From the NCBI GenBank assembly GCA_020057405.1, contig JAGVFW010000004.1:62001-126000 (forward strand): a stretch of DNA of 64,000 nucleotides, written 5' to 3'. Below are positions 34,362-64,000 of the stretch, piece after piece. Every line of letters begins with the position of its first letter. Position 1 is the stretch's first letter. The notes beneath the pieces were generated by a model. That model was not told the DNA's origin and did no database searches. It saw only the letters and a program-made list of their open reading frames with translations. Source of the DNA: an archaeon. GTDB taxonomy: Archaea > Micrarchaeota > Micrarchaeia > Norongarragalinales > UBA97. The position numbers and the translations under genes are program-made.

Positions 34362-37232
34362 TTAGACGCCACGGACAGCATCGCGGTTCGTCGCCAACCA
34401 ACCGATTAGCGCGTTAGCCGCATCCTGCGTGTCCTGAGCCGTGTAGCCAGCGACGATAACCTTACCGCCGATGACACGGACGATGGACGAACCGGGTGCG
34501 TTGGTCGCCTCGGCAACGCCGGGGGTTCCAGCAGCAACGCTGTTCACCATCGGGCCGCCGACGACGATTACCTGCGCGGTCGAGCCGGCATCGGTGTCAA
34601 GTACGACGAGCCTGTCCGACGCGGTGTTGAGCGGCGTGACAACTGCAGCCTTTGCAGGCGAGCAGGTGCCAGCACCACCAGAACCAGCGCCAGTGCAGAC
34701 TGCGGTACCGCCGATGGCCGAAACCATGACCTTGTAGCCGCCGCCGAGCGAGTACTCCTCGCCTTCCTTAAGCGTAGTCGTCGAGACGATAGCACCGGAT
34801 TCGGTGATGTTCACGTCAGAGGGCGCACCAAACTGCCAGCGAGCCTTCACCAGCTTCTTCGGGTACAAGACGGCAATCTCGTTGTTGCTCAACATCGAGA
34901 GGACGCTTCCACCGGGCGTGATGTATCCCTGCTCAGCACCGAGGGTGCCGGTTGCGGGCATGTTCGTTATCGACGTGCCGGGCGAAGTCGTGGTCGTGTA
35001 CTGCGTAGTCAGGGTCGAGGTCGTCAACGTGCTGTTGAACAAGTACTGCGCATCGGTGTCAGTTCCACCAGGGAACATGTCGATGTTGAAGTAACCATTC
35101 AGGGCAGCGGTGTTGTCGATGATGGGCTCGTAGATGCGGAGCTTGATCGTCGCACCAGTGTTGTTGGCGAAGGGCAGAGTCTGTCCAATAACCTGGACGT
35201 TGACCTGCGCGCTTGCGTTGAAGCTCGTCGTCGTTGAAGGCAGAGTCGCCAACAGGAAATTACCTGTCGAGTTACCCATGTAGACCTTGAACGCCGCAGC
35301 GCCGTTTACTGGCAACCACGATAGGATAGGACCGCCCGCGAGTGCACCACCATCGTGGACACGAGTCTCTGCGCGTGCAATGGACTCAGAGCCTGACGAG
35401 GTGTTGTAGGTCACGAAGTACCTAGCCGACGTAGTCATGTTGAACGCGGCTGAACCGGGGTTGTAGGTTGCGGTGAAGCCAGCGGGGCCGGGCCTTGCGT
35501 TTGAGCTGACCAGCATGATACCAGCACTCGCCGTAGTCGACGGGTAGTAGTAGTCAAGCGTGTCGTCTGCTACGTCGCTCGGGGTAGTGTAGTTTGACTG
35601 CGTGCCCGAAGCATCGTAGACGATGAAGCGACCGTTGTACTTGTCGATCCACACGGTGTCGTAGGTCTTGCCGCCAACGAGAAACGCGTTGTTGTAGGCT
35701 GACTTGAGCTGAGTCACGTTGACATCGACGTTAGTGCCGAAGCCGAGCGTGCCGTCAGACTGCCTTGAGATGACGTTGACGAACGGGTCTGCCGTCGCGT
35801 TGTCACCAAGAGGCGACATCTTGCTCATGGTCGTCCTGCCGAGCGCCTTGATAGTCAAGGTGTCGTGGTCGGTTGGAACCTGGCCAAGGAAGGTCAAGCT
35901 CTTTGCCACAGGCTTCGCAATGAGGTTGAAAGACTTTCCAACTTTCACGCGAGTCGAGGTGGGGCCAGACAGCTTAATCTGCTTGAGCGACTTCTGCGCT
36001 TGGTCACCAACAGTCAACTGGTTGAACACGAGGTTCGCAACCCAGTTGGCATCCTGGTTCAGACGCGTAGACGCGTCGTCACCCTGGAACACGAGCTTGC
36101 TACCGTCCGTTAGGGTAATAGCGCTCGAGTAGACGGCAACCTCAGTGTATGAGGAGTCGCCGCCGCCCACGAAAACATCGCGGACGTGCAGGATGATGCC
36201 GTTCTTGTTGTAGTCTGAGGACGACTTGGACATCGAGAAGAAGTCCAGGCGGGTGCCCTCTGCGTCAGTTATCTCGAACGAGGAGAAAGGCTCGTTTCCA
36301 CCACCAGTGGCGATGGGTGAGATGCTGACCAGGCGGACTTCCTTGTCGCCGAGCTTGATGGACTCACCAGCCTTCATCTGCTTGAAGACTGCTGACTCAC
36401 CGAGGCTGAGCGTCGGGGTCGTCGTTGCGGTGCCGTTCTCAAAGTCAGTGATGACAAAGTCGCGGCCGAGGAACTTCACCTTGATGTTCCTGTTCTCCGT
36501 AATCTTGTCGTCATTGCTTGAGCGGCCTGAAGTGCTGCCGTTGACGATGTCGATGTGGTAGGGGACGGCATCAGTAAAGTTGCTGATGTATGCCATCTTG
36601 ATGCGGTCTGCCACAAGAGCGTCCTCAGTGAAGTCGTAGTAGTTCTGGCCAGAGACGTAGAAGCCGTCTTCCTGGGTAACAGTGTACGAGCCGAGGTTTG
36701 TAACAGCGCCCTTGAAGACAACGTCGGGGAAGAGCGTGTTTGACAGGTAGAAACCACCAGTGGTGATGCCGTTACCAACCAAGAGGCTGGCAGCGTCGTC
36801 GTCACGGGTCGTCGTGGCGGTCTTGATGTCGTTGTCAAGGAAGTCGTAGAGCTGCGTGTCGATGGTTGCAGTGCCGGTCTGGCCTGTTGCGCCTGCGGGC
36901 GAAGTAACCGAGAGGTCAACAGTCTTGTCGGCCACAGTGCCTGCGGGAAGTCCCGTAGGAGCGGGCGACGCGGTTGTGCCACCGAGCTGGGTGACATCAC
37001 GCTCGCTGTACGCGAGGTTGCCTACCATGGCGGCAATGTTGGCGGCAGCGACACCGTCCCAAATCTGGGCGTTGGAGCCGACGACAATCTTCACATTGGG
37101 CTCGCCATTGGTAAAGAAGTTATAGTTACCAAGGCTGCTTTCATCTACCGTGACAGCGCCAGCGAAGGCAGCCGCAAGGAGAGCTCCACCAGCAGCGGCG
37201 GAAGCGATTTTCTTCACATTCAAACTCTTCAC
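34362..37232 (-). CDS. S-layer protein
   Basis: 956 aa from a GTG at 37232 with a GGGGTGA ribosome-binding site 4 nt upstream. The N-terminus 'VKSLNVKKIASAAAGGALL' is a signal peptide, followed by 'NGEPNVKIVVGSNAQIWDGVAAANIAA', the methanococcal-type S-layer N-terminal domain. The long middle is Thr/Ser/Asp-rich with beta-sheet character, and the C-terminal 'GKVIVAGYTAQDTQDAANALI' ends with the matching family domain. It forms the cell-surface lattice. Many NxT/NxS sites suggest glycosylation. Confidence 0.93.
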   Translation of the reverse strand: MKSLNVKKIASAAAGGALLAAAFAGAVTVDESSLGNYNFFTNGEPNVKIVVGSNAQIWDGVAAANIAAMVGNLAYSERDVTQLGGTTASPAPTGLPAGTVADKTVDLSVTSPAGATGQTGTATIDTQLYDFLDNDIKTATTTRDDDAASLLVGNGITTGGFYLSNTLFPDVVFKGAVTNLGSYTVTQEDGFYVSGQNYYDFTEDALVADRIKMAYISNFTDAVPYHIDIVNGSTSGRSSNDDKITENRNIKVKFLGRDFVITDFENGTATTTPTLSLGESAVFKQMKAGESIKLGDKEVRLVSISPIATGGGNEPFSSFEITDAEGTRLDFFSMSKSSSDYNKNGIILHVRDVFVGGGDSSYTEVAVYSSAITLTDGSKLVFQGDDASTRLNQDANWVANLVFNQLTVGDQAQKSLKQIKLSGPTSTRVKVGKSFNLIAKPVAKSLTFLGQVPTDHDTLTIKALGRTTMSKMSPLGDNATADPFVNVISRQSDGTLGFGTNVDVNVTQLKSAYNNAFLVGGKTYDTVWIDKYNGRFIVYDASGTQSNYTTPSDVADDTLDYYYPSTTASAGIMLVSSNARPGPAGFTATYNPGSAAFNMTTSARYFVTYNTSSGSESIARAETRVHDGGALAGGPILSWLPVNGAAAFKVYMGNSTGNFLLATLPSTTTSFNASAQVNVQVIGQTLPFANNTGATIKLRIYEPIIDNTAALNGYFNIDMFPGGTDTDAQYLFNSTLTTSTLTTQYTTTTSPGTSITNMPATGTLGAEQGYITPGGSVLSMLSNNEIAVLYPKKLVKARWQFGAPSDVNITESGAIVSTTTLKEGEEYSLGGGYKVMVSAIGGTAVCTGAGSGGAGTCSPAKAAVVTPLNTASDRLVVLDTDAGSTAQVIVVGGPMVNSVAAGTPGVAEATNAPGSSIVRVIGGKVIVAGYTAQDTQDAANALIGWLATNRDAVRGV

Positions 37233-37246
37233 GAAATCACCCCGTA

Positions 37247-37263
37247 CGAACCTTGTGGGTTCG
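37247..37263 (-). promoter_or_regulatory. Leader hairpin beside the S-layer ribosome-binding site
   Basis: The 5' leader folds CGAACC-CACAA-GGTTCG, a six-pair stem ending 3 nt before the GGGGTGA ribosome-binding site (37237–37243). It could stabilise the mRNA or tune translation. Confidence 0.45.
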
Positions 37264-37308
37264 GACAATGTCTTACAAAGACCTATGTTATACACCAACT
37301 TGACGCCG

Positions 37309-37317
37309 CTATTTAAA
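37309..37317 (-). promoter_or_regulatory. TATA box of the S-layer gene
   Basis: TTTAAATAG on the minus strand. A start 25 nt downstream would give a leader of about 50–55 nt that includes the hairpin. Confidence 0.55.
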
Positions 37318-37722
37318 CCTTCGCGCCCCGACAACGGTTTTTTAAACCATCGCCAAGAAGCGATGCTTATACAGCACCAAGCTAGTGGAATACCCTTAAC
37401 ACTGGGTCGCTTTATAAGAGTTACGGGTAAAGTATTGCCTACTGACGATGATTTGGGGGACGGGAAGCGAATTTGGGCCCTTTTTCGCCGTAACCCCTTT
37501 CGACAAACATTAGACGCCTGACGAAGAAAACACAGCTTTAGAGTGCGCCAGATGGGAAAAACCATGGACCGCCGCCACCAAAGACTCCCGGGGGGAACTA
37601 GCACCAAAAACCTAGCGCCTGCCTGCCAACCGCATCCGGCTACGCCGGCAGGGACAACCACCACACCCCCCATAGGCGGCACGGAGGTGACGCCAGGCGG
37701 CCGGGACTTTTTGCGCCATTAC

Positions 37723-50345: not shown

Positions 50346-50546
50346 TCAAGATTTGGCTGACTTTTCCTTATGCTTGTTGAATGCGAGCCTAAACCGCTCG
50401 AGACGTTCGAGGTAATGCCGCTCTTGCTCTGGAGTTCGTTCGAGCTGCGGGGTTTTTGCCAGAAACTCTTTGAACTTGCTTTTGTCCGCCGCTTCCTTCA
50501 CCGTCTTTTTGCGGTGCAGTTCTCGGATTTCCTCTTCCTCGTCCAT
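50346..50546 (-). CDS. Small charged helical protein, unknown
   Basis: 66 aa, Glu/Lys/Arg-rich and likely all helical ('PEQERHYLERLERFRLAFNKH'). Starts with ATG and ends 12 nt before the cyclophilin gene; probably one operon. No family recognised. Confidence 0.55.
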   Translation of the reverse strand: MDEEEEIRELHRKKTVKEAADKSKFKEFLAKTPQLERTPEQERHYLERLERFRLAFNKHKEKSAKS

Positions 50547-50625
50547 CGGTAGTCAATTCACTCAAACCACGAATTTAAACTCTTGCAAAACGCTTTTAAG
50601 TTCGCTGAAGCCTACTCAAGTCATA

Positions 50626-51558
50626 ATGAAGTTGTTTGCCGCCGTGGTGGGCGTCTTATTTGCACTCCAGCTTGCAGCAGCCTATCCCCAGCTAGTCGTC
50701 ACTGTTGACGCGCCAAGGTACGCTTCGGCACTTGAGCCGATGCTCTCGGTGCCTGAACTCAAGGGATTCATTGGCGACTCGGCAACAATTCTGGTGCGCG
50801 CCGGGAGCGACCGCGCGTTCTTCAAGATAGAGGGCGGGAAGGCAACTTACTTGGCAACCGCCAACGGCGACGCCGACTTCACCGCTTCGGGCTCGATGGA
50901 TGCCTGGCTCACGCTCCTTAACGCGGTTGACAAGACACTCACGTTCAAGCGCCTGCTCGCAGCGCGTGCCATTGTAATCAGCGCGCGCGACGGGGTAAAG
51001 CAGGCTGCGATAAACGCCGGAATGTCAAGTGGTGCTCTTTCAGTTGATGCCATCAAGGACGGCGACTCAATGCGCTATGACGGCGAAGGGCGCATCCGCA
51101 TGGAAAACAACAGACCAATACTGCAAGTCGGCAACGACAACTTCCTGCTCAACCGCTTTGGCGGGATTGTCGGCGGCCTCCCGAAAGGCTACGACCGCTT
51201 TTCACAGCCGCCCGCAAAGCTCGGCCTCTATTTTGAAAAGCCCCCTGGCGTGCTCGCGCAGTTTCCCGGACTCATCTACGACACGGTCTCCAATCACCCG
51301 TCGCCCAACATGATGGGACCGTGGAATGTCTTCAAGATTAACCCGGGGCTCATTGGCCCGGACCAGATACTCAAGCTAAACCCGGGATTAATCGGGCCGG
51401 CAGACATGGCGCTCCTCAACCCGAACCTGCGTGGCCCTGCGGAATTCGCGCACATGATGGGCATCGGCGCGCACAGCCGCTCGGCGCAGGCGCTGCAGGA
51501 CCGGGGAATGCTTGGCAACTTTGACTTGTCAAACCACAATCGATGGGGACAACGCTAA
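50626..51558 (+). CDS. Secreted protein with NPGLIGP tandem repeats, unknown
   Basis: 310 aa. Signal peptide (residues 1–18), a globular domain with 'DADFTASGSMDAWLTLLNAVD' reminiscent of SCP2-like lipid-binding folds (weak), then three 14-residue repeats 'INPGLIGPDQILKL', 'LNPGLIGPADMALL', 'LNPNLRGPAEFAHM'. The stop of this gene is followed directly by the next ATG (0 nt). A TATA-like CTTTTAAG lies about 30 nt upstream. Function unknown; sits just upstream of the surface-polymer island. Confidence 0.7.
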   Translation: MKLFAAVVGVLFALQLAAAYPQLVVTVDAPRYASALEPMLSVPELKGFIGDSATILVRAGSDRAFFKIEGGKATYLATANGDADFTASGSMDAWLTLLNAVDKTLTFKRLLAARAIVISARDGVKQAAINAGMSSGALSVDAIKDGDSMRYDGEGRIRMENNRPILQVGNDNFLLNRFGGIVGGLPKGYDRFSQPPAKLGLYFEKPPGVLAQFPGLIYDTVSNHPSPNMMGPWNVFKINPGLIGPDQILKLNPGLIGPADMALLNPNLRGPAEFAHMMGIGAHSRSAQALQDRGMLGNFDLSNHNRWGQR

Positions 51559-52086: not shown

Positions 52087-53664
52087 ATGAAACCAGTTGA
52101 AACTTCGTTGCCCCAGGGGTCTGCAGAAACATCCTCGGCCCTAAAGTCAGTCGTTAAGGGCGCGGGACTCGTGCTCGTCGGCCTGGCAATCTCAAAGGCA
52201 ATGTCTTACTTCCTTCGCCTAGTCTTAGCCAGGCTGGGTCCCGAGCAGTACGGCCTCTTCACACTCGGCCTCACGGTTTTTGACTTTGCCACGTTTCTCA
52301 CTTCACTGAGCCTCCTTACTGCGGTGCTGCGTTACGCGCCCGAGTACCACGCGCTTGGCAACAACAAGCGGCTCTTAGGCGTTTTTTCCGACTCGGTCAA
52401 GCTCATAATCGCCGCAGGCATCGCCGGCTCTGCAATCCTCTACTTTTCTGCAGACGCGATTTCAACAATCGTCTTTCACCAGCCCGCTCTTGCGGGCATC
52501 CTGCGCATAATGTCGTTTGCAATAGTGTTCTACAACCTCAGCGGCGTAGTCACGTCGCTTGCTCGCGCGCTTAACCGCGTGGAGTATGAAGTCGCGCTAA
52601 AGATGGTTGTCGAAAACGCATTCAAGCTCGCCTTGGCCGCAACGGCGGTTGCCATGGGCCTTGGTCTCGCGGGCGTCACGGCTGGATTCTCAATAGCCAT
52701 TTTCCTCACCTGCCTCGTTTCATTCTACGCAGTTGAAAAGAAGGTCTACCCGTTTGTTGCAAAGGCAACTTCGGGCGCCCCCATCGAAAGCACGGCAAGG
52801 CAGCTTCTGACGTTCTCGCTTCCCCTCACCGCGGACGGCCTGGTGTGGATGGTGGCGGCGTCGGCTGACATCATAGTCATAGGCATTTTCCTGGGCGCAG
52901 CACAAGTGGGCATCTACGGCACGGCGCTCCCGACCGCAGCGTTCCTGACCGTGATACCGCTTGCGCTGCAGACTATGTTCAAGCCACTCACCGTCGGGCT
53001 GCTTGCCAAGAAGAAGACCGAGGACGTCAAGCGAGTTTACTACACGCTTAGCAAGTGGGTATTCGCGGCCAACCTCGCGGTTCTTTTGCCGGTCGTCGTT
53101 TTCGCCACCCAGATAATCGCTATTCTCTTCGGCCGCGACTACGGCCCGGCGGCCCTGCCACTCTCGATACTCTCGACTGGCTTTTTCTTAAGCCAGCTCT
53201 TGCGCATTGGCGAGGAAATCGTGGTCGCATACGACAGAACCGTGTTTTTGCTTGCAAACGCGGTCGTGGCAGTTGCGATTGCTGGGCTTGCCCAATTGTT
53301 GCTCGTCCCGCATTACGGGATTGCTGGAGCTGCAGTCGGCGCGGCGCTGACTTGGCTCGCCATGGGCTTCGGCATTTGGTATAAGGCAAGGAGGCTCACC
53401 GGGTTTTCGCCTTTTGCCGCATCCAAGTACCTGCACATCACTCTTTCGGGCGGGATTGCCGTCGGTGCGTCCTACTTGCTCGCCAAGTACTTCCTTGCCG
53501 CCGACGTCTTTGGCGCAATCGTGATACTCGTTTCATTCGTAGCGGTTTACGCAATTTGCCTGCGCGGCCTTAAAGTCGCCGACGAGTATGACATCGAGGT
53601 CGGCGAGGCCATCACGCGCAAGCTCGGCATTAAAATCAACGTCAGGAAAATCCTGACAGCGTGA
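52087..53664 (+). CDS. Polysaccharide/oligosaccharide flippase (Wzx/MVF type)
   Basis: 525 aa with about 14 membrane helices. The N-terminal block 'GAGLVLVGLAISKAMSYFLRLVLARLGPEQYGLFTLGLT' is typical of Wzx/RfbX-like lipid-linked glycan flippases. It would move a lipid-linked sugar unit to the outside. The TATA-like CCGTATTTAATCC region (about 52047–52059) lies 30 nt upstream. Its stop overlaps the next start (TGATG), opening the surface-modification operon. Confidence 0.9.
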   Translation: MKPVETSLPQGSAETSSALKSVVKGAGLVLVGLAISKAMSYFLRLVLARLGPEQYGLFTLGLTVFDFATFLTSLSLLTAVLRYAPEYHALGNNKRLLGVFSDSVKLIIAAGIAGSAILYFSADAISTIVFHQPALAGILRIMSFAIVFYNLSGVVTSLARALNRVEYEVALKMVVENAFKLALAATAVAMGLGLAGVTAGFSIAIFLTCLVSFYAVEKKVYPFVAKATSGAPIESTARQLLTFSLPLTADGLVWMVAASADIIVIGIFLGAAQVGIYGTALPTAAFLTVIPLALQTMFKPLTVGLLAKKKTEDVKRVYYTLSKWVFAANLAVLLPVVVFATQIIAILFGRDYGPAALPLSILSTGFFLSQLLRIGEEIVVAYDRTVFLLANAVVAVAIAGLAQLLLVPHYGIAGAAVGAALTWLAMGFGIWYKARRLTGFSPFAASKYLHITLSGGIAVGASYLLAKYFLAADVFGAIVILVSFVAVYAICLRGLKVADEYDIEVGEAITRKLGIKINVRKILTA

Positions 53665-54770
53665 TGATAGTGGCTAACGCTATTCCGGAAAACCTGCGGC
53701 CTGACCGCGTCTCCCTAGTTGCAATCGACTTTCTTAACCGCTCAAGCAGCCTTTTTTTCAACTGCCTCCTTGACGGCCACCCCCAAATCATTCACGGCTT
53801 TGCGCAAAACTATCCTGCCGGGGCAAGCTCGCGGCAAGAAGCGGCCAGGGCCGCTTTTGAAAATCTTGCGTCTAGCATGATTTGGCATTACTCCCCCCGC
53901 GACTTTCCTTTCTCGTTTAGGGAGTTCGAACCGCTTTTCAACCAGTACGCCGACGAATTCGGCTTCTCGCAAAAAAGCGCGTTTGTCGCGGCGCACTACG
54001 CCTTGGCAAAACTGCTTGGAAAAGACTTAAAGAAAATCAAGTGGATTGCGTACCACCCGCACGGCCACTCAAATATCGGCAGTGTAATGCGCGCAAAGCG
54101 GGACTTTCCGAACCAAAAACTGATTCTCACGGTTCGCGACCCGCGCGCGGCCATTTGGGGAAACCTGCGGGCGGACAAAAAAGTGCCCCTCTACGAACTT
54201 TTGCCGCAGGCTCCGGCCTACTGGTGGGCTTACAAACGCATTTTTGCAAGGAACGAAATTAGGGTCGTGAGGCACGAGGACATTCACACTAATTATCCAC
54301 GCGAGCGGGTAGCCTTGACGGAATTTTTGCAGATTCACGACGAGGCTAGCCTTGACCAAGCCACGCTATTCGGCAAGCCCTGGGATGGGAGTGCGAAAAA
54401 CGCGGTCCTCTCGAACACTGGCCGCAAGTCAAGCAGGCCCGACCCGGCTTTTGTCACAGACGACTGGAAGCAGGGGCTCTCGCGTTTTGACTTGTTCTTG
54501 ATACAGGCGGCTCTTGCGGGTTTCATGCGCGAGTTTGGTTACTTGCCGTACAGCAAGCCCGACGGGAAGTGCAAGCAAGTCGAGCTTGACTATGGCGCGC
54601 TGTGGAATGAATTCACTGCAAAAACTGTTCCTGCCTCGCTTCGTCCCGCCCTTGGCGGCGTCGCCTCAACACCTTTTATAAGCGTGGTTCCAAAAACAAT
54701 TATTCACGCCATGATAGCGGCGCGGACGGCGCGCAATTACCTGGCGCTTTACTCCGCAGTCACAAGCTGA
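53664..54770 (+). CDS. Sulfotransferase-fold protein; candidate phosphoramidate transferase
   Basis: 368 aa. The 5'-phosphate-binding loop region 'DFLNRSSSLFFNCLLDGHPQI' and the 3'-phosphate-binding 'ILTVRDPRAAIWGNL' are the two PAPS-type nucleotide motifs of sulfotransferases. In this operon the likely donor is not PAPS but 3'-phospho-CDP-amidate, which has the same 3'-phosphate, 5'-diphosphate layout. The second role is inference. Starts by ATG overlapping the flippase stop. Confidence 0.72.
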   Translation: MIVANAIPENLRPDRVSLVAIDFLNRSSSLFFNCLLDGHPQIIHGFAQNYPAGASSRQEAARAAFENLASSMIWHYSPRDFPFSFREFEPLFNQYADEFGFSQKSAFVAAHYALAKLLGKDLKKIKWIAYHPHGHSNIGSVMRAKRDFPNQKLILTVRDPRAAIWGNLRADKKVPLYELLPQAPAYWWAYKRIFARNEIRVVRHEDIHTNYPRERVALTEFLQIHDEASLDQATLFGKPWDGSAKNAVLSNTGRKSSRPDPAFVTDDWKQGLSRFDLFLIQAALAGFMREFGYLPYSKPDGKCKQVELDYGALWNEFTAKTVPASLRPALGGVASTPFISVVPKTIIHAMIAARTARNYLALYSAVTS

Positions 54771-54805
54771 TGGCGGCGTAGGGGAAACACGGAAGTTGGG
54801 ATTTA

Positions 54806-55588
54806 ATGAGCGAAAAACTTTACTCAAGCGAGTGGGACTACACGTCTCAGGCCAAGTTCTACGACAGGCGGCCCAACTACGCCCCAAAGGCGATTGAGCG
54901 CATTTGCAAGCACGTTGGCGCAAGCACTCACGGCAACTACGCTGTTGCAGACATCGGCGCCGGCACGGGTAACCTCACGCTCTTGCTTGCCAACAAAGCG
55001 GCTAAAGTAATTGCAATCGAGCCCAACGACGCCATGCGCGAGATAGGCAGGGGCAAGACAAAGGCGATGCCCAATGTCGAGTGGCGGGTGGGCAGCGGCG
55101 AGAAAACCGGATTGCCTTCAGGCGCGGTCGATTTGGCCGCTTTTGGCTCTTCGTTTAACACAACCGACAGGGACGCGTCACTGCGCGAGTCGCACCGCAT
55201 TCTCAAGCCGGAAGGCTTCTTCACCTGCATGTGGAACAACCGCGACCTGCAGGATGGGCCGCAAAAGCGCGTCGAGGAAATCATCCGCGAGTTCGTTCCA
55301 GACTACAGCCACGGCACGCGGCGCGAGCAGCAGGCCGACGTCATCATCGCAAGCCGCCTCTTCAACAACCTCTACTACCTGGAAGAACCACAGGCGGTCA
55401 AGATGAGTGTCGAGAATTTTGTCGACGGCTGGCGCTCGGTCAAGAACAAGTACTGGGACCCGGCGACCCCAGAGGGCAAGGAACTGCTTTCAAAGATTAT
55501 CGCCAGGATAGAGTCGGAGTTTGCGGACACCCCGGAACTGCAAATCACTTACGTCACCCGCGCGTGGACTGCAAAAAGAGAGGACTGA
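54806..55588 (+). CDS. SAM-dependent class I methyltransferase
   Basis: 260 aa. Rossmann motif I 'VADIGAGTGNLTLLLA' near residue 50 and motif 'LRESHRILKPEGFF' downstream (post-I). It belongs to the UbiE/CoQ-like general group. In Campylobacter two methyltransferases sit beside the phosphoramidate genes and methylate the phosphoramidate oxygen; by context this could do the same. Substrate otherwise unknown. Confidence 0.85.
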   Translation: MSEKLYSSEWDYTSQAKFYDRRPNYAPKAIERICKHVGASTHGNYAVADIGAGTGNLTLLLANKAAKVIAIEPNDAMREIGRGKTKAMPNVEWRVGSGEKTGLPSGAVDLAAFGSSFNTTDRDASLRESHRILKPEGFFTCMWNNRDLQDGPQKRVEEIIREFVPDYSHGTRREQQADVIIASRLFNNLYYLEEPQAVKMSVENFVDGWRSVKNKYWDPATPEGKELLSKIIARIESEFADTPELQITYVTRAWTAKRED

Positions 55589-55596
55589 ACTTAGCC

Positions 55597-56388
55597 ATGG
55601 CCGGAGAGCGAAGCGAACTACAAGCGCTCGCCGGTGCCCTGCAAACGGCAGGCGATGCGATTCTAAAAGTGCGTTCGCGGGCATTCTCACTAAAGCGCGA
55701 CAAGAGTCCCGTCACGGCAGCCGACCTAGCCTCGTCAAAAATTCTTGAGCGCGAGCTGTCGAAGACGGGCATTCCGGTATGCTCGGAAGAGCGCCGCGTG
55801 AGGGCAGCCAAGGAAATGTGGTTCGTCGACCCGCTTGACGGCACGAAGAACTACATCGAAGGCAACCCCGGCTACTGCGTGATGGCAGGCCTTCTAAGGA
55901 ATGGGAAAATAGTCATTGCCGGAATTTACGTTCCAAGCACCCGCGAGCTTTACTACGCCGAGCTAGGCAAGGGCGCGTTCCTGCTTAAAGGCGGCAAGCG
56001 GACGCGCTTGAAGGCAAGCGGCAGGACGCGTCCGTCTCTTTTACGCGTAATCAAAAGCCGCCACCACCACACTGCAACCGACGAGGCCTTCATCAAGCGC
56101 GCTGGCCTGGGCCGCCAAATCGGGATTGGTAGCGCGGGCCTCAAGCTTTGCGCAATCGCGTCAGGCAAGGCGGAGCTTTACGTCAATTTCGACGGCCTTT
56201 GGGCCTGGGACATTGCCGGACCGCAGCTTGTGCTTGAGGAAGCGGGCGGCAGCGTCACCGACGCGACAGGCCACGCCCTGCGCTACCCGCCGGCTGGAAT
56301 GCGCTTTGCCGGAGGAATCATCGCGTTAAACAAGGCAAACGCCGAAATACTATCGCTTGCTAAAAAGCATTGGAAGGAAATTAAATGA
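55597..56388 (+). CDS. Inositol monophosphatase family, CysQ-like bisphosphate nucleotidase
   Basis: 263 aa. Metal-binding motifs: 'VTAADLASS', 'CSEERR', 'WFVDPLDGTKNYIEG' (DPLDGT) and 'WAWDIAGPQLVLEEAGG' (WD near the C-terminus), the IMPase/CysQ set. CysQ removes the 3'-phosphate of PAP. Here it could clear the 3',5'-bisphosphate of cytidine (pCp) left by a transferase using 3'-phospho-CDP-amidate. It starts 8 nt after the methyltransferase and overlaps the next gene (ATGA). Confidence 0.85.
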   Translation: MAGERSELQALAGALQTAGDAILKVRSRAFSLKRDKSPVTAADLASSKILERELSKTGIPVCSEERRVRAAKEMWFVDPLDGTKNYIEGNPGYCVMAGLLRNGKIVIAGIYVPSTRELYYAELGKGAFLLKGGKRTRLKASGRTRPSLLRVIKSRHHHTATDEAFIKRAGLGRQIGIGSAGLKLCAIASGKAELYVNFDGLWAWDIAGPQLVLEEAGGSVTDATGHALRYPPAGMRFAGGIIALNKANAEILSLAKKHWKEIK

Positions 56389-56900
56389 AGGGACTCCTAG
56401 TCTGGATTACAGGGCTCGCTGGATCCGGCAAGACTACGCTTGCGGCTATGGTTGAAAGCGGCCTTCGGGCCAAGGGCGTGCGCACGGTGCACGTCGACGG
56501 CGACGCTGTCCGCGAGATTTTTGGAAACGAGCTCGGCTTCCACCGGGAAGACCGGCTGAAAAACGCCTGGCGCATCGCCCGGCTCTGCAGTTTCCTCACA
56601 AGCCAGGGGTTTGCAGTCGTCTGCTCGACAGTGTCCCTCTTCCACGAAATCCACGGCTACAACCGCAAAACAAATTCAGGCTACCTTGAAGTCCACCTGG
56701 CAGTCAGCGCGGCCGAGCTTACCCGAAGGAACAAGAAGGGATTGTACGGCAAGGGCGGAAAGCAGGTTGTCGGCAGGGACATTGAACCCGAGTTTCCAAA
56801 GAAGCCCGACATGATGTTGGCAAACGACAACAAAACCCAGCTTGGGCAAAACGCCGGGGCAATAATTTCGAAAGCCGCGAAAATGGCTGCGGGCAAGTGA
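56385..56900 (+). CDS. Cytidine diphosphoramidate kinase (Cj1415-like; APS-kinase family)
   Basis: 171 aa, the same size as C. jejuni Cj1415. P-loop 'GLAGSGKTTLAAM' and 'VDGDAVREIFGNELGFHREDRLKNAWRIARLC' are APS-kinase-like, but the usual APS-kinase 'ISPF/ISPY' region is replaced by 'VCSTVSLFHEIHGYNR', the pattern I associate with the CDP-amidate kinase branch. It would add a 3'-phosphate to cytidine diphosphoramidate. Plain APS kinase is the alternative, but no ATP sulfurylase is present. Overlaps the next gene by GTGA. Confidence 0.8.
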   Translation: MKGLLVWITGLAGSGKTTLAAMVESGLRAKGVRTVHVDGDAVREIFGNELGFHREDRLKNAWRIARLCSFLTSQGFAVVCSTVSLFHEIHGYNRKTNSGYLEVHLAVSAAELTRRNKKGLYGKGGKQVVGRDIEPEFPKKPDMMLANDNKTQLGQNAGAIISKAAKMAAGK

Positions 56901-59278
56901 GTCGAATGGTGCCGTTCAAGTTCTCTACAAAAGCCGAAACGCTCAAGCGGCTCGCGCCCCTGCTGAAAGTCGGCGCGGTGCTGCCGCAACACCACTTCAC
57001 GGTTGGCGAATGGAAGAAAAACAAGCCTGCGATTGCGGCCAAAACGCTAAAAGAATTGGCGGACGCCAAAAAACTCGCAGTGCGCTCAAGCGCAGTTAAT
57101 GAAGACTCGCACTCAAGCTCGATGGCAGGCAACTTCACAAGCTGCCTCAATGTGCAGCCCAATGGGGCGAGCCTTGAAAAAGCGGTTGAAACCGTAATCG
57201 CAAGCTATGGAAACGGCGGGCACGCAAGCGACGCCAACCAGGTCCTCGTGCAGCCGCAGATTGAGAACCTGGAAGTGAGCGGCGTCGCCTTCACCTGCGA
57301 CCTTGACACGGGCGCACCTTACTACATCGTCAACTACGACGACATTTCCGGCAAGACCGACGTCGTAACGTCAGGCACTAGCAACAAGGTCAAGATGTTC
57401 GTCTACAGCAAGTTTTACGGCCAAAAACCAACGAGCCCCAACCTCGCGCTCATCATCTCCGCAGTGCGAGAGCTTGAGAAGGCAACCGGAAGCGAAGCGA
57501 TTGACATTGAGTTCGCCGTGTCAAAAGGCAAGTTTTTTGTTTTGCAGGTGCGGCCGATTACTACCGCTGGCAGGAAGCGCAACTATTCGCAGGAAGCGCT
57601 AAAGCAGGAACTCGACAACATCAAACGCTTCATTCGCGAGAACAAAAGGTCGTTCCCCAACTTGTTCGGCAGTCGAAACGCCTACGGCATCATGCCCGAC
57701 TGGAACCCGGCGGAAATAGTTGGCGTCAACCCCAAGCCCCTGGCGCTCTCGATGTACAAGGAGATTATCACGGACTACATCTGGCCCCTAAGCAGAAAAG
57801 AAGTTGGGTACAAGGACGTCGGCTACCACCCGGGCCTCTGCTCGCTCTCCGGCAAGCCCTACATCGACATTCGCCTCAGCTTAAGCACGTTCCTTGCCGC
57901 AGACATTCCGGATGCGCTTGCGCAAAAGCTCGTAGACTTCCAGCTAAACAAGCTGCAGCTCAACCCCATGCTTCACGACAAAATCGAGTTCCAGATTGCC
58001 CACACTGCCTACAGCCTCAACTTCAAGCAATCGGCGGAGGAACTGCTCAAAAACGGCTTTTCAAAAGAGGAAGTCGAAATTCTACGAAAGTGCCTCCTAA
58101 AGCTTACGAACAACATCCTTGCAGAGCGGGTCACAAGCGTCGGCAGCCAGATGGCACTCGTTTCGCACCTCGATGCCAAGCGCAGGAAAATCAGGCTCTC
58201 CGACATTCCGATTGAAGTGAAAATAGCGCAACTCGTGCACGACTGCAAGTACTACGGCACCCTGCCGTTTTCCAAGCTCGCTCGCTTTGCATTCATCGCA
58301 AGCATTTTGATGCGCTCGCTTCGCGAGCGGGGAGTGATTACGCAGGCGCAGTACGACGGGTTCTTCAGCTCAATAGAGACGGTCGCGACCGAATTCGTCC
58401 GCGACATTGGCGAGATGAAGGCAGGCAAAATGACGCGAGCTGAATTCTTGAACCGCTACGGCCACCTGCGGCCGGGCACTTACGACATCACGTCACTCAC
58501 TTACGCTGAGAACCTTGAGAACTACATTGACCTCAAGCACTACGACTCTGGCAAGACACACGAGAAGTTCGCTTTCGACGCGGCGACCATAAGGCGCATT
58601 GACGGCGAGCTAAAGGCGCAAGGCGTCGAGGCAAACGCGCACGAGCTGCTTAAGTTCGTAGAGGAAGCGACAATCGGCCGCGAGAAGTCGAAACTTGAGT
58701 TCACCAAGAACCTTAGCCTCGCGCTTGACTACTGCACGCAATACCTCCACAGGTACGGAATCGACAGGGAGGACGCGGCGTTTCTGGAAATCGGCGACTT
58801 GCTTGCCGCAAGCCACGACAGCAAGCTCTCAACCGCTAAAGGAGACCTCGAGGCGAAGATTGGGAGCCACAAGGCAAGCTATGAGATGACGAAGGCAGTG
58901 CGCCTCCCGCCACTCATTTTCGACGAGAAGAATGTCGAGTACTTCCACTACCGCGATGACATGCCGAACTTCGTTTCCGACAAGCGGGTTAGCGCAGAAG
59001 CAGCCTACGTTGCCGCAAACACCACCGACGGCGCGTTGTTGGACGGAAAGATTGCACTCATCGAAAACGCCGACCCGGGCTTTGACTGGATATTCAGCCA
59101 CAACATCAAGGGGCTCGTCACGAAATTCGGCGGGGCCAACTCGCACATGGCAATCCGGTCCGCAGAGTTCGGCCTCCCTGCCGCAATCGGCTGCGGGCAA
59201 GTGCTTTTCGCCTACCTCAAGGACGCACGCAAGATAGAAATAGACTGCAGCGTCAAGCAAATAAGGAAAATACAATGA
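56897..59278 (+). CDS. L-glutamine kinase (Cj1418-like, PEP-synthase-related)
   Basis: 793 aa. N-terminal ATP-binding domain with 'LAVRSSAVNEDSHSSSMAG' and 'GAPYYIVNYDDISGKTD', a central domain with 'MPDWNPAEIVGVNPKPLALSMYKE', and a C-terminal swivelling domain with catalytic His in 'GGANSHMAIRSAEFGLPAAIGCG'. PEP/pyruvate barrel is absent, as in Cj1418, which phosphorylates the side-chain amide of L-glutamine. Start by GTG overlapping the kinase stop (an ATG lies three codons on). The first committed enzyme of phosphoramidate synthesis. Confidence 0.85.
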   Translation: MSRMVPFKFSTKAETLKRLAPLLKVGAVLPQHHFTVGEWKKNKPAIAAKTLKELADAKKLAVRSSAVNEDSHSSSMAGNFTSCLNVQPNGASLEKAVETVIASYGNGGHASDANQVLVQPQIENLEVSGVAFTCDLDTGAPYYIVNYDDISGKTDVVTSGTSNKVKMFVYSKFYGQKPTSPNLALIISAVRELEKATGSEAIDIEFAVSKGKFFVLQVRPITTAGRKRNYSQEALKQELDNIKRFIRENKRSFPNLFGSRNAYGIMPDWNPAEIVGVNPKPLALSMYKEIITDYIWPLSRKEVGYKDVGYHPGLCSLSGKPYIDIRLSLSTFLAADIPDALAQKLVDFQLNKLQLNPMLHDKIEFQIAHTAYSLNFKQSAEELLKNGFSKEEVEILRKCLLKLTNNILAERVTSVGSQMALVSHLDAKRRKIRLSDIPIEVKIAQLVHDCKYYGTLPFSKLARFAFIASILMRSLRERGVITQAQYDGFFSSIETVATEFVRDIGEMKAGKMTRAEFLNRYGHLRPGTYDITSLTYAENLENYIDLKHYDSGKTHEKFAFDAATIRRIDGELKAQGVEANAHELLKFVEEATIGREKSKLEFTKNLSLALDYCTQYLHRYGIDREDAAFLEIGDLLAASHDSKLSTAKGDLEAKIGSHKASYEMTKAVRLPPLIFDEKNVEYFHYRDDMPNFVSDKRVSAEAAYVAANTTDGALLDGKIALIENADPGFDWIFSHNIKGLVTKFGGANSHMAIRSAEFGLPAAIGCGQVLFAYLKDARKIEIDCSVKQIRKIQ

Positions 59279-59919
59279 AAATGAAAATCGGCCTCTCGAT
59301 GCGGATGGTGCGCTGCCAAAAGCCCGGCCACACTACGGGGAAGGGCGAAGTGCGCCACGCCATTTCGCAGGATTGGATGACGCTTTTGCAAAAGCTGGGC
59401 TTTACTCCCGTTTTGTTGCCGTCTGACCTCAAGGACATTCCCCAAATTGACGGCGTGATTCTCACAAACGGCAACAACGTCGACCCGCGCGCCTACGGCG
59501 GGAAGCCCCTTGACGACGTTTTTGCCGAGCGCGATGCTTTTGAGGCAAGGCTCGCCAAGATGGCACTCGGCAAGAAAATCCCGATTCTTGGCGCGTGCCG
59601 GGGCAGCCAGATGCTAAACGTGTTTTTCGGCGGAAAGCTAAAGCAACACGTGGCGGGCCACAGCGGCACGACGCACGCCATTGCACTGCGGAACGGCAAG
59701 CGCGTGACAGTCAACTCTTACCACGACCACGGCATTGCCGCCGACGGGCTTGGCAATTACCTAGAACCGCTTGCGTTTAGCGACGACGGCTTCATTGAGG
59801 CGTTCGGCCACAAAAGCGTACCCGCCATGGGCATCATGTGGCACCCCGAGCGCGGGCCGACTGCGTTTAACGACAGTCTAGTCAAGAGATTTTTCACTCG
59901 CCGAGGAGAACTCATTTGA
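59275..59919 (+). CDS. Gamma-glutamyl-CDP-amidate hydrolase (Cj1417-like, class I amidotransferase)
   Basis: 214 aa, peptidase C26/class I glutamine amidotransferase fold. Nucleophile Cys in 'LGACRGSQMLNVFFGG' and His/Glu in 'GIMWHPERGP'. In C. jejuni the related protein releases glutamate from gamma-glutamyl-CDP-amidate to give cytidine diphosphoramidate. A general gamma-glutamyl hydrolase is the alternative, but the operon fixes the role well. Overlaps neighbours on both sides (ATGA, TTGA). Confidence 0.83.
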   Translation: MKMKIGLSMRMVRCQKPGHTTGKGEVRHAISQDWMTLLQKLGFTPVLLPSDLKDIPQIDGVILTNGNNVDPRAYGGKPLDDVFAERDAFEARLAKMALGKKIPILGACRGSQMLNVFFGGKLKQHVAGHSGTTHAIALRNGKRVTVNSYHDHGIAADGLGNYLEPLAFSDDGFIEAFGHKSVPAMGIMWHPERGPTAFNDSLVKRFFTRRGELI

Positions 59920-60713
59920 AGGCAATCATCCTTGCCGCAGGCAGGGGCACGCGCTTGGGCGATTACGCAAAAGGAATGCCGAAAGCCATGCTCGATTTTG
60001 CAGGCAAGCCCCTGCTTGCAACGCAGCTGAAGGTGCTCCGCGCTGCAGGCGTCAATGACATTACGGTCGTCACGGGTTTTGCCTCCAAAAAAATTGCCTT
60101 TGATGGCGTAAATTACGTCCATAACCCTGATTTTGCGACAACTAACATGGTGGAATCACTCATCGTTGCGCGCGATGAGCTAAAGGCCGGGGCACTCGTG
60201 TGCTATGGCGACATAATCTACGAGCCTAGGGTGCTAAAGGCAGTGATGAAGGCAAAGGCCGACGCCGTAGTTGCAGTTGACTACGACTATCTCGACTATT
60301 GGAAGGCAAGGCTTGGGGACGAATGGGAAAATGACACTGAATCCCTGCGGGTCGTAAACGGCAAAATTACCGAACTAGGCGGGTCAAACCCGTCGGCCAA
60401 GGAGCGGCAATGCCGTTACGTCGGGCTCCTCAAGTTCTCTGCAAACGGGGCAAAGTTGTTGCTTGAGACGTACTACGCTGAAAAGCGGCGCCATTGGGAA
60501 TCCGAGAAGCCTTGGCTTAACTCTCCGTCATTCAAGCAGGCATTCATGACCGACCTGCTAAACGCGTTTATCGCGCGGGGCAATGAAGTCAGGCCAGTGG
60601 AGATAGAGCGCGGGTGGATGGAGTTTGACACTGCTGATGACTATGAAAAGGCAAGCGCGTGGCTGGCTGATGGCAGCATCAAGCGCTTTTTCGACCCACG
60701 GACGCTGGCGTGA
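59916..60713 (+). CDS. CTP:phosphoglutamine cytidylyltransferase (Cj1416-like)
   Basis: 265 aa from a TTG that overlaps the previous stop (TTGA). Nucleotidyltransferase signature 'AIILAAGRGTRLGDYAKGMPKAML' at the start, 'VCYGDIIYE' for the metal-binding Asp, and 'RGWMEFDTADDYEKA' near the end. In Campylobacter the homologous enzyme joins CMP from CTP to gamma-glutamyl phosphate amide. A sugar-1-phosphate nucleotidyltransferase is the alternative by sequence alone; context favours the former. Confidence 0.8.
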   Translation: MKAIILAAGRGTRLGDYAKGMPKAMLDFAGKPLLATQLKVLRAAGVNDITVVTGFASKKIAFDGVNYVHNPDFATTNMVESLIVARDELKAGALVCYGDIIYEPRVLKAVMKAKADAVVAVDYDYLDYWKARLGDEWENDTESLRVVNGKITELGGSNPSAKERQCRYVGLLKFSANGAKLLLETYYAEKRRHWESEKPWLNSPSFKQAFMTDLLNAFIARGNEVRPVEIERGWMEFDTADDYEKASAWLADGSIKRFFDPRTLA

Positions 60714-60758: not shown

Positions 60759-62489
60759 ATGAACATACTCGGCGTCTACCCCGTTTGGGGCCACGACACC
60801 TGCGCGGCAATAATCAAGGACGGCAGGCTAGTCGCGGCTGCGGAGGAAGAGCGCTTCACCCGCCACAAGCACGCCCTGCCGCGGCCCCATAGCATGACGA
60901 ACATGATTGACCAGTCCGTCGAGCCCTCGTTTCACTCAATAAAATTCTGCCTCGACTACGCGGGCCTCACCATGGACGACATTGACGCAATTGCAGTGCC
61001 TTGGAACCCCGACCTCATCGTCAAGCAAAACTTTACCAGCGGCTCAAGGCTCATTCCAGAACTCGCCGCAAAGGCGCTCATGCTGCCCGCGGGACGGCTT
61101 TGGCGCTACAAGAAACTCTTCCGCAAGGGCGCGTCACTAAAGCAGGCGCTCTACTACGACTTTTTCATGGAACCATCGCTCTCGGGATATTCGAGCCTTC
61201 CTGAAATAAGGTATTACGAGCACCACCGCGCCCACGCCGCGACCGCTTTCTACGCGTCAGGATTCGAGAACGCGGCGGTCGTGACTGCAGATGGAGCGGG
61301 AGAGTCAAACGCAACAGTCGCCTGGCACGGGAAGGGAAACACGCTAACTAAACTCCGCGAGAAAATGAAGGACCAGTCAATAGGCAATTTCTACACGCTC
61401 GCCACCGAATACCTCAACATGGGCTACGGTGCCGAAGGAAAGACAATGGGCCTCTCGCCCTACGGCAAGCCCAACGCCAAAATCAGGGAAAAACTCCTCC
61501 GCAGGCTTAACCCGGAAACGGGCGACTGGTACGAAGGCAAGCTTGAGACCCTAAACGAGGCTGAAATGGGCTTTCCAGCGCGCACCAACCAGGCGGTTAC
61601 TTCGCCGCCCTATAGCGACCTTGCCTACGAGGCAGAGGAGATTCTTGAGGCGGCGATGGTGAAAGTGGCCAAGTGGACGGTGGAGGCTACGGGAGAAAGC
61701 AAGGTCTGCGTGGCAGGCGGCGTCGGGTTAAGCTGCACGACAAACTCGCGCATCATCAACGCGGGCTTTGCAGACGACATATTCATCTTCCCGGCAGCAA
61801 ACGACGGCGGCACCGCAATTGGGGCGGCCCTTGAATGCGCCGCCGAAATGGGGGAGAAAGTCAAGTTCAAATTCGAGCACGCTTACTGGGGCCCCGAGTA
61901 CTCTGACGCGCAAATTGAAGTTGCGCTAAAGCAGAGCAACGCGAGGTTTGAAGAAACAACTGACCCCGGCGGGGCAGCTGCAGACCTGATTGCAAAAGGA
62001 AAAGTAATCGGCTGGTTCCAAGGCAGGATGGAAATCGGCCCCCGCGCGCTTGGGAACCGAAGCATCCTGGCAGACCCGACGCGCACAGACGCGTGGGAAA
62101 AAGTGAATGAAATCAAGCTGCGGGAAAGGTGGAGGCCGCTCGCTCCAAGCATGCTTTACGAGGCCAAAGACGAGTACCTGGAAAACGCGCGCGACTCACC
62201 CTTCATGATACTCGCATTCCAAGTACCGAAAGAAAAACACAAGGAAATCCCGGCGGTCGTACACGTCGACGGCAGCACCCGACCGCAAACCGTCAAGAAG
62301 ACGACCAACGAAAAATACTGGAACCTAATCAAAAAACTCGAGCAAAACAACGGCACGCCAGTCACACTGAACACCAGCTTCAATGTCGGGCCGGAACCAA
62401 TCGTCTGCACGCCAAAAGACGCGCTGCGAACGTTCTTCACATCCCAGCTTGACGCAATCGTAATCGGGAACTACGTGCTAGAAAAGTGA
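60759..62489 (+). CDS. Carbamoyltransferase (NodU/CmcH family), copy 1
   Basis: 576 aa. N-terminal ASKHA-type (Kae1-like) domain: 'HDTCAAIIKDGRLVAAAEEERFTRHKH', 'YYEHHRAHAATAFYASGF', 'ADGAGE'. C-terminal domain: 'WFQGRMEIGPRALGNRSILADP'. This family moves carbamoyl from carbamoyl phosphate through carbamoyl-AMP to sugars, antibiotics or lipid-linked glycans. A surface glycan is likely by context. It is tandem with a paralogue, sharing near-identical DNA in the 3' third. Confidence 0.92.
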   Translation: MNILGVYPVWGHDTCAAIIKDGRLVAAAEEERFTRHKHALPRPHSMTNMIDQSVEPSFHSIKFCLDYAGLTMDDIDAIAVPWNPDLIVKQNFTSGSRLIPELAAKALMLPAGRLWRYKKLFRKGASLKQALYYDFFMEPSLSGYSSLPEIRYYEHHRAHAATAFYASGFENAAVVTADGAGESNATVAWHGKGNTLTKLREKMKDQSIGNFYTLATEYLNMGYGAEGKTMGLSPYGKPNAKIREKLLRRLNPETGDWYEGKLETLNEAEMGFPARTNQAVTSPPYSDLAYEAEEILEAAMVKVAKWTVEATGESKVCVAGGVGLSCTTNSRIINAGFADDIFIFPAANDGGTAIGAALECAAEMGEKVKFKFEHAYWGPEYSDAQIEVALKQSNARFEETTDPGGAAADLIAKGKVIGWFQGRMEIGPRALGNRSILADPTRTDAWEKVNEIKLRERWRPLAPSMLYEAKDEYLENARDSPFMILAFQVPKEKHKEIPAVVHVDGSTRPQTVKKTTNEKYWNLIKKLEQNNGTPVTLNTSFNVGPEPIVCTPKDALRTFFTSQLDAIVIGNYVLEK

Positions 62490-62496
62490 TTTGAAA

Positions 62497-64000
62497 ATGG
62501 CTAACGTACTCGGCATTTGCGTTGCTTCGGAAGTCCAGGAACGGCATGATACTGGCGCCGCTCTAGTCAAGGACGGCAAGCTCATTGCGGCGGTTGAGGA
62601 AGAGCGCTTCACGCGCAAGAAGCACGAAACGGCCCCGCCCGTGCTCTCGGTAAAGTACTGCCTTGCGGCGGGTGGCCTGACGATGGATGACATCGACGGC
62701 ATTGCAATCATGTGGCGCGACGTGCAGGCGCCTTATGCGGATGTGCTAAACGCAGTTCTGCGCTACAACAAGGCCAAAAACGTGCTTTTGCGCAAGCTCG
62801 GCACTGACTTGAAGAAACTTGCTGGCGGCTACCGCGACCCGCAGCTTGACTTCCTGCGCGAATACAGCCGCTCGCCTCCAGTCACTTACTACGAACACCA
62901 CTTGACGCACGCCGCGACTGCTTTCTACCCGTCGGGCTTCAAAGACGCGGCGATAGTGACTGTCGACGGCACAGGCGAGTGGAACTCGACAGTCGCTTGG
63001 AAGGGCGGCGCCGACGGCATCACAAAACTAAAGGAAAAGCCCAACTCGCAGTCGCTCGGATTCTTTTACTCGGCAGTGACAAAGCACATCCGCATGGGAA
63101 GCCAGGCCGAAGGAAAGACCATGGGCCTGGCGCCGTACGGCAAGCACGACCCCGACATCTACTCGCGGCTTACCAACTTTATCAACCCGAACAAGGGCGA
63201 ATGGTACGAGGGCGCGACGACACGCGACATCAACCAGGCCGACCTCGGCTTTCCCCAACGGCTTGATTCTGAAAAAGCCACTAGCGAAAAGTACGCCAAC
63301 CTCGCCTACAACGCGCAGGAAATCCTAGAAGAGGCGCTCCTAAAAGTTTCCAAGTGGACGGTTGACGAAACCGGTTGCAAAAACATCTGCCTCTCTGGCG
63401 GAGTTGCGCTAAACTGCACGACGAACTCGCGCATCATCAACGCGGGCTTTGCGGATGACATTTTCATCTTCCCGGCAGCAAACGACGGCGGCACCGCAAT
63501 TGGGGCGGCGCTCCAGCTTGCTGAAGAACTTGGAGACAAGACGGCATTCCGGATGGAAAGCCCATACTGGGGCCCCGAATTCACCGACGAGCAAATTGAG
63601 GAAGCACTCAAGGAAAGCGGCGCGACCTTTGAAGAGACTGGCGACCCAAGTGGTTCTGCGGCGGACCTTATTGCAAAAGGCAAAATCATTTGCTGGTTCC
63701 AAGGCAGGATGGAAATCGGCCCCCGCGCGCTTGGGAACCGCAGCATCCTGGCAGACCCGACGCGCACAGACGTGTGGGAGCGCGTAAACGAGGTGAAGCT
63801 GCGCGAACAATGGCGGCCGCTCGCTCCAAGCATGCTCTACGAGGCCAAAGACGAGTACCTAGAAAACGCGCGCGACTCACCCTTCATGATACTCGCATTC
63901 CAAGTGCCAAAAAACAAGCACAAGGAAATCCCGGCGGTCGTACACGTCGACGGCAGCACCCGACCGCAAACCGTCAAGAAGACGACCAACGAAAAATACT
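62497..64000 (+). CDS. Carbamoyltransferase (NodU/CmcH family), copy 2 (runs off the edge)
   Basis: 501 codons visible, start ATG at 62497, 7 nt after copy 1. Same domain order: 'RHDTGAALVKDGKLIAAVEEERFTRKKH', 'YYEHHLTHAATAFYPSGF', 'VDGTGE', 'WFQGRMEIGPRALGNRSILADP'. N-terminal halves of the two copies differ clearly, while the 3' part is almost identical at the DNA level, ending in an 82-base identical run at the window edge. Substrate unknown; two sites or two positions of one glycan are possible. Confidence 0.92.
   Translation, partial: MANVLGICVASEVQERHDTGAALVKDGKLIAAVEEERFTRKKHETAPPVLSVKYCLAAGGLTMDDIDGIAIMWRDVQAPYADVLNAVLRYNKAKNVLLRKLGTDLKKLAGGYRDPQLDFLREYSRSPPVTYYEHHLTHAATAFYPSGFKDAAIVTVDGTGEWNSTVAWKGGADGITKLKEKPNSQSLGFFYSAVTKHIRMGSQAEGKTMGLAPYGKHDPDIYSRLTNFINPNKGEWYEGATTRDINQADLGFPQRLDSEKATSEKYANLAYNAQEILEEALLKVSKWTVDETGCKNICLSGGVALNCTTNSRIINAGFADDIFIFPAANDGGTAIGAALQLAEELGDKTAFRMESPYWGPEFTDEQIEEALKESGATFEETGDPSGSAADLIAKGKIICWFQGRMEIGPRALGNRSILADPTRTDVWERVNEVKLREQWRPLAPSMLYEAKDEYLENARDSPFMILAFQVPKNKHKEIPAVVHVDGSTRPQTVKKTTNEKY

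Follow-up and report, generated by a model that had tools for sequence, protein, structure and literature searches.

Sugars that carry phosphorus-nitrogen (P-N) bonds are rare; the only chemically documented cases in the literature searched are Campylobacter capsules. In Campylobacter jejuni the O-methyl phosphoramidate (MeOPN) genes are clustered with surface-polysaccharide genes. The products of mpnA, mpnB, mpnC and mpnD (Cj1418, Cj1417, Cj1416 and Cj1415) form the route to the donor 3'-phospho-cytidine diphosphoramidate (PMC6429109; PMC11924219), Cj1419 and Cj1420 are methyltransferases, and MeOPN is transferred by the DUF2972 proteins Cj1421/Cj1422 (PMC5808241). For the Cobalt Borg, an archaeal extrachromosomal element, an O-methyl phosphoramidate gene cluster was proposed in 2025 (PMC12660748). 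Here we analysed a stretch of 64,000 nucleotides (the window) of an archaeon of the Micrarchaeota, order Norongarragalinales (assembly GCA_020057405.1, contig JAGVFW010000004.1, positions 62,001 to 126,000). At 56385-60713 it carries an operon that, by the homology of its products, probably builds a phosphoramidate donor. Four donor enzymes and one methyltransferase are homologous to those of C. jejuni, and in both cases surface-polysaccharide genes are close by. In contrast to Campylobacter, the host is an archaeon, the gene order differs and there is a single methyltransferase; moreover, a sulfotransferase-fold protein is found where Campylobacter has DUF2972 transferases, and a CysQ-like gene sits within the operon. 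The four core genes are:

56385..56900 (+): adenylyl-sulfate (APS) kinase family enzyme, 171 residues, proposed cytidine diphosphoramidate 3'-kinase (MpnD/Cj1415), from NF004041 and the tree
56897..59278 (+): predicted glutamine kinase (MpnA/Cj1418), 793 residues, from NF004508, the tree and the AlphaFold model
59275..59919 (+): class I amidotransferase, 214 residues, proposed gamma-glutamyl-CDP-amidate hydrolase (MpnB/Cj1417), with NF045546 as best family and from the alignment
59916..60713 (+): nucleotidyltransferase, 265 residues, proposed CTP:phosphoglutamine cytidylyltransferase (MpnC/Cj1416), from NTP_transf_3 and the alignment

Four overlapping genes of these families had been recognised in the initial annotation, and the open reading frames, junctions and Pfam domains (APS_kinase PF01583; PPDK_N and PEP-utilizers; Peptidase_C26/GATase; NTP_transf_3) agree with it. 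The junctions within the set are GTGA, ATGA and TTGA overlaps, and an ATGA overlap also links the 56385 gene to the preceding CysQ-like gene. The reported motifs GGANSHMAI, GACRGSQ and CSTVSLF are all present in the predicted proteins. The extent of the operon, on the other hand, had been only partly described: the four genes were correct, whereas the methyltransferase, CysQ-like and sulfotransferase-like partners upstream had been overlooked.

For comparison with Campylobacter we used the Campylobacterales locus L143, which scored 1173 bits with the glutamine-kinase family NF004508 and 330 bits with the gamma-glutamyl-CDP-amidate hydrolase family. It serves as the reference because its protein lengths (170/253/200/779/253/257) equal those of C. 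jejuni mpnD, mpnC, mpnB, mpnA and the two methyltransferases (PMC7901785) and because kpsC/kpsS-like genes adjoin its cassette; we infer this identity from the order of its genes, the family score and the lengths of its proteins. All four core enzymes of the window matched their counterparts MpnA-D (Cj1415-1418) by family and alignment, and the two kinases by trees too. This supports the earlier proposal that the set is equivalent to Cj1415-Cj1418, with the amidotransferase remaining under its curated cut-off.

The large kinase scored 888 bits (E 5e-267) with NF004508, for which the cut-off is 501 bits, and a chance match of the predicted protein to this family is excluded. Models of phosphoenolpyruvate (PEP) synthase and rifampin phosphotransferase gave less than 70 bits. 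The only domains found were PPDK_N and PEP-utilizers, a PEP barrel domain was not detected, and the motif histidine (GGANSHM) is residue 750. The protein aligned over its full length with the L143 counterpart (37.7% identity). In the tree it grouped with the Campylobacter-type glutamine kinases, with very long branches to E. coli PpsA and to the PEP synthase of its own genome. An AlphaFold model (predicted local distance difference test score, pLDDT, 88) showed a dikinase architecture, the closest structure in the PDB being rifampin phosphotransferase. Scores and tree thus bear out the assignment of the large protein to the Cj1418 type, and with rifampin phosphotransferase it has only the overall architecture in common.

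The small kinase scored 158 bits with NF004041, above the cut-off of 127, and 102.8 bits with the apsK equivalog TIGR00455, below its cut-off of 138.7. In a tree of 69 rows it was placed among the phosphoramidate-type cassette kinases, Campylobacter included (support 100/99), and a branch of length 0.96 separated these from the kinases of sulfate assimilation, E. coli CysC and NodQ among them. At the position of SPF, SPY or APF in true APS kinases, cassette kinases mostly carry S-[LMIV]-F; the small kinase has SLF. As had been predicted, it is therefore of the Cj1415 type and is placed apart from the true APS kinases.

The best family of the amidotransferase was the gamma-glutamyl-CDP-amidate hydrolase NF045546 (112.6 bits; next best 47.8). 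It is 33% identical to the Campylobacter enzyme and retains the catalytic Cys and His/Glu motifs. The nucleotidyltransferase is homologous to the Campylobacter Cj1416-type enzyme (31% identity over 255 columns, E 1.9e-42), has the same place in the cassette and is a putative user of CTP.

In the proposed pathway, the glutamine kinase would use ATP, via a phospho-histidine, to form N-phosphorylated L-glutamine (step 1), which the cytidylyltransferase would join with CTP to give CDP-glutamine (step 2). The amidotransferase-type hydrolase would then cleave off glutamate, leaving cytidine diphosphoramidate (step 3), and the APS-kinase-like enzyme would phosphorylate its 3' hydroxyl (step 4). The chemistry of these steps is that generally known for the Campylobacter homologues. 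That these four steps are the function of the operon is, in our judgement, well supported as a prediction from homology. The three partner genes (53661-56388) adjoin the core set upstream, so that the set forms the later half of a longer run:

53661..54770 (+): sulfotransferase-fold protein, proposed phosphoramidate transferase, from profile and AlphaFold model, conserved in three archaeal operons
54806..55588 (+): S-adenosylmethionine-dependent methyltransferase of the Cj1419-position type, proposed to catalyse O-methylation, 47.9% identical to L143:2135-2896, clade support 99/94
55597..56388 (+): CysQ-like 3'(2'),5'-bisphosphate nucleotidase, proposed to recycle cytidine 3',5'-bisphosphate (pCp), from Inositol_P, with TIGR01331 as best NCBIfam

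The first of these proteins is genuinely of the sulfotransferase fold and carries both phosphate motifs, 5' and 3'. Its profile matched PDB sulfotransferases (E 8e-14), and its AlphaFold model (pLDDT 78) matched tyrosylprotein sulfotransferase (E 9e-8); the Pfam match of the single sequence was under the cut-off. It is the sole sulfotransferase match in its genome. The sulfotransferase fold recognises a 3'-phosphonucleotide, and sulfotransferases use 3'-phosphoadenosine 5'-phosphosulfate (PAPS). By analogy, the protein could transfer the phosphoramidate group from 3'-phospho-CDP-NH2 to a sugar hydroxyl, releasing 3',5'-pCp (step 5), a role to which we give about an even chance. The methyltransferase falls in the Campylobacter Cj1419-position clade; its L143 relative lies beside the glutamine kinase, and no close match was found among solved structures. 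The archaeal cassette G116 has the same type, and the methyltransferases of G079, L035 and L036 fall in the opposite half of the tree, together with the Cj1420-position type. The CysQ-like protein scored 161 bits with Inositol_P and 150.8 bits with TIGR01331 (cut-off 228.8). From homology and position only we infer that the methyltransferase probably O-methylates the phosphoramidate group, making O-methyl phosphoramidate (step 6), and that the CysQ-like phosphatase converts pCp to CMP (step 7). Together, a recruited sulfotransferase-superfamily enzyme and CysQ-like pCp recycling might amount to a full counterpart, in P-N chemistry, of the PAPS sulfation cycle, serving archaeal surface glycans; we see the balance for and against this as level.

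We next consider how these genes are distributed. Among 196 genomes of the host's class, the glutamine kinase exceeded its cut-off in three. Strong matches to the sulfotransferase-like family, whose model was built partly from these genomes, were found in the same three only. All seven genes occur together in each of them, in differing orders; the other two genomes belong to two other families of the class, and one operon-bearing genome of the class is G079 (L034, LFW-281_7), 'Ca. Burarchaeum australiense' of the DPANN phylum 'Ca. Micrarchaeota' (PMC8561730). A sulfotransferase-like gene is also located near the cassette in the Pacearchaeota and Nanoarchaeota loci L035 and L036. Overall, at least 538 loci, across many bacterial phyla and several archaea, encode glutamine-kinase relatives, and ATP sulfurylase genes are close to only a few of the loci. 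A related cassette (L094) is found in Haloferax elongans, an archaeon that can be cultured. Of 74 loci whose flanks were good, 47 have a cassette with a 3'-kinase and 27 one without it; sulfotransferase-fold genes accompanied 17 of the former and none of the latter (Fisher p 1.3e-4); co-occurrence of CysQ with the 3'-kinase across loci was not significant (p 0.31). The cassette is absent from the sampled rest of the host's order, and archaea and bacteria are mixed in the trees, which suggests horizontal spread.

The genes around the operon point to surface glycan synthesis, since a flippase and carbamoyltransferases adjoin it. All genes from 52087 to 60713, and the two carbamoyltransferases that follow, are on the (+) strand. 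The flippase overlaps the sulfotransferase-like gene by four bases (GTGA-type), and gaps of 35 and 8 bases precede the methyltransferase and CysQ-like genes, respectively. The context genes are:

52087..53664 (+): MOP-type flippase-like membrane protein, weak NCBIfam MOP flippase matches, at the head of the overlapping run; context and not core
60759..62489 (+): NodU-like carbamoyltransferase with Carbam_trans N and C domains, glycan decoration context
62491..64000 (+): second NodU-like carbamoyltransferase, extending beyond the window end (L030:2492-4171)

A BacA-type lipid pyrophosphatase also comes after the set, the genome encodes an STT3-type oligosaccharyltransferase, and in one of the two other genomes of the class (G116) the cassette is embedded in a cluster with genes for a dTDP-sugar epimerase, a UDP-glucose dehydrogenase and glycosyltransferases. 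A glycan is therefore the likely acceptor of the predicted group. Elsewhere in the window, 34362-37682 (-) encodes a large secreted-looking protein that resembles an S-layer protein and is a possible glycan carrier.

Several results weigh against the proposed pathway. The score of the amidotransferase is below the NF045546 curated cut-off of 250, which is also missed by other archaeal and Helicobacter relatives. With the genome at 90.6% completeness, the assembly could lack sulfation genes that the organism has. When relatedness of the loci was allowed for, about two independent pairs showed the predicted association between sulfotransferase-fold gene and 3'-kinase and none the opposite, which is not significant (p 0.5). 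Finally, the Campylobacter transferase is a DUF2972 protein (PMC5808241) and differs from the sulfotransferase-like protein of the window; a profile comparison between the two families gave a probability of 0.8%, and no kinship was found. Descent of the archaeal transferase from the same stock as the DUF2972 transferases is thus unsupported, though both have an RDP-like motif. In the DUF2972 MeOPN transferases L141:3266-5104, L143:93-1235 and L145:3202-5046, a [VI]RD motif recalls the 3'-phosphate loop of sulfotransferases; the profile comparison is too weak to judge this resemblance.

Of the other explanations, the best surviving is that the phosphoramidate donor is made, but that the final product is not a glycan: it could be a small molecule, the head group of a lipid or a modification on a protein. 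Related core cassettes do adjoin other partners, such as a CDP-alcohol phosphatidyltransferase in Agrobacterium vitis. The flippase, carbamoyltransferases and BacA-type enzyme nearby and the G116 copy inside a polysaccharide cluster, however, make this rather improbable.

A sulfation operon would share many of the features described above: the APS-kinase-like enzyme would make PAPS, the sulfotransferase would sulfate a glycan, CysQ would remove 3'-phosphoadenosine 5'-phosphate, and the remaining genes would be unrelated. The three families lie side by side here, as they do in genuine sulfation loci (NodQ-CysQ, for example), and PAPS-dependent sulfation (CysC/NodQ, sulfotransferase, CysQ) resembles the proposed pathway in that the donor is a 3'-phosphonucleotide, the transferase is of the sulfotransferase fold and a bisphosphate nucleotidase takes part. 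The proposed pathway differs in its predicted donor, which is cytidine-based with a P-N group. In the host genome, at 90.6% completeness, no match was found to ATP sulfurylase (PF01747) or to CysD/CysH (PF01507), which within this limit makes a PAPS route unlikely. In addition, the small kinase is below the apsK cut-off and outside the clade of true APS kinases, and sulfation gives no account of the glutamine kinase, hydrolase and cytidylyltransferase. Given the kinase tree and the lack of any APS source in the 90.6% complete genome, we reject sulfation as the identity of the operon and rate this explanation as having little probability.

The large kinase could also be an ordinary relative of PEP synthase or rifampin phosphotransferase, unconnected to phosphoramidate. 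It has the ATP-binding domain and mobile His domain in common with these enzymes, and with rifampin phosphotransferase also a helical middle domain and the overall architecture. Nevertheless, it differs in sequence family (888 against less than 70 bits), tree position and conserved partner genes and lacks a PEP barrel, and the genome encodes a PEP synthase of its own; on family scores and tree we reject such an identity, which we regard as very improbable. That the operon is bacterial contamination, as its mostly bacterial close relatives might suggest, is practically ruled out by its G+C content, equal to that of the surroundings, by the 185 kb contig with thermosome, proteasome and other archaeal genes in the window, by the archaeal nearest relatives in the kinase trees, and by the low contamination (0.27%) of the 1.22 Mb genome.

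Phosphoramidate donor synthesis thus remains the preferred reading of the operon. Its novelty is limited, as the cassette is widespread in bacteria and present in other archaea, and the Borg cluster has already been proposed. That cluster likewise belongs to an archaea-linked glycoconjugate region and includes, among related genes, one for a predicted phosphoglutamine cytidylyltransferase; it was proposed from structure comparison and for an extrachromosomal element, the window operon being chromosomal. The initial annotation knew of no described archaeal phosphoramidate glycan. This stands for measured glycans, none of which was found in the literature searched, and has to be qualified by the related archaeal cassettes and the Borg proposal. 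A sulfotransferase-fold phosphoramidate transferase was not reported in the literature searched either (the phrase is absent from the top-ranked matches). The pathway itself is known and its setting is new: what we add is the seven-gene archaeal version with the proposed transfer and recycling steps. If correct, some archaea decorate their surface as Campylobacter does, and a reason for the 3' phosphate of the pathway would be that it makes the donor readable by the sulfotransferase fold. In such operons, the public labels 'adenylyl-sulfate kinase', 'PEP synthase' and 'sulfotransferase' would then indicate the wrong chemistry. The family of the cassette-type kinase, NF004041, continues to bear the name adenylyl-sulfate kinase, and that of the glutamine kinase, NF004508, is called a 'hypothetical protein'; annotations that rely on these names will mislead. 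The enzyme claims can be tested on purified proteins, and cultivation of the archaeon is unnecessary.

Variants of the cassette were also observed. A second type (L059, L066, L097, L099 and L102, including a haloarchaeon, Woesearchaeota and Altiarchaeales) combines the glutamine kinase with the hydrolase and the cytidylyltransferase but lacks 3'-kinase and methyltransferase; it probably uses a different transfer chemistry. In several members, the haloarchaeal one included, the kinase has a longer N-terminus with a nucleotidyltransferase-like stretch. On an Agrobacterium vitis plasmid (L032:5917-11006), the same three genes lie beside those for a CDP-alcohol phosphatidyltransferase and a LysE exporter, again with no 3'-kinase, and the product is perhaps a small phosphoramidate or a lipid. 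Several bacteria (L025, L061, L069, L070 and others) have the 3'-kinase domain in fusion with the glutamine kinase or with other domains, which supports the functional link.

Just upstream of the operon, 50470-51558 (+) encodes a protein of 362 residues without Pfam match that contains repeated LNPGLIGP/LNPNLRGP-like motifs. The tandem carbamoyltransferases at 60759-64000 (+) share long near-identical stretches toward their C-termini, which suggests a recent duplication or gene conversion.

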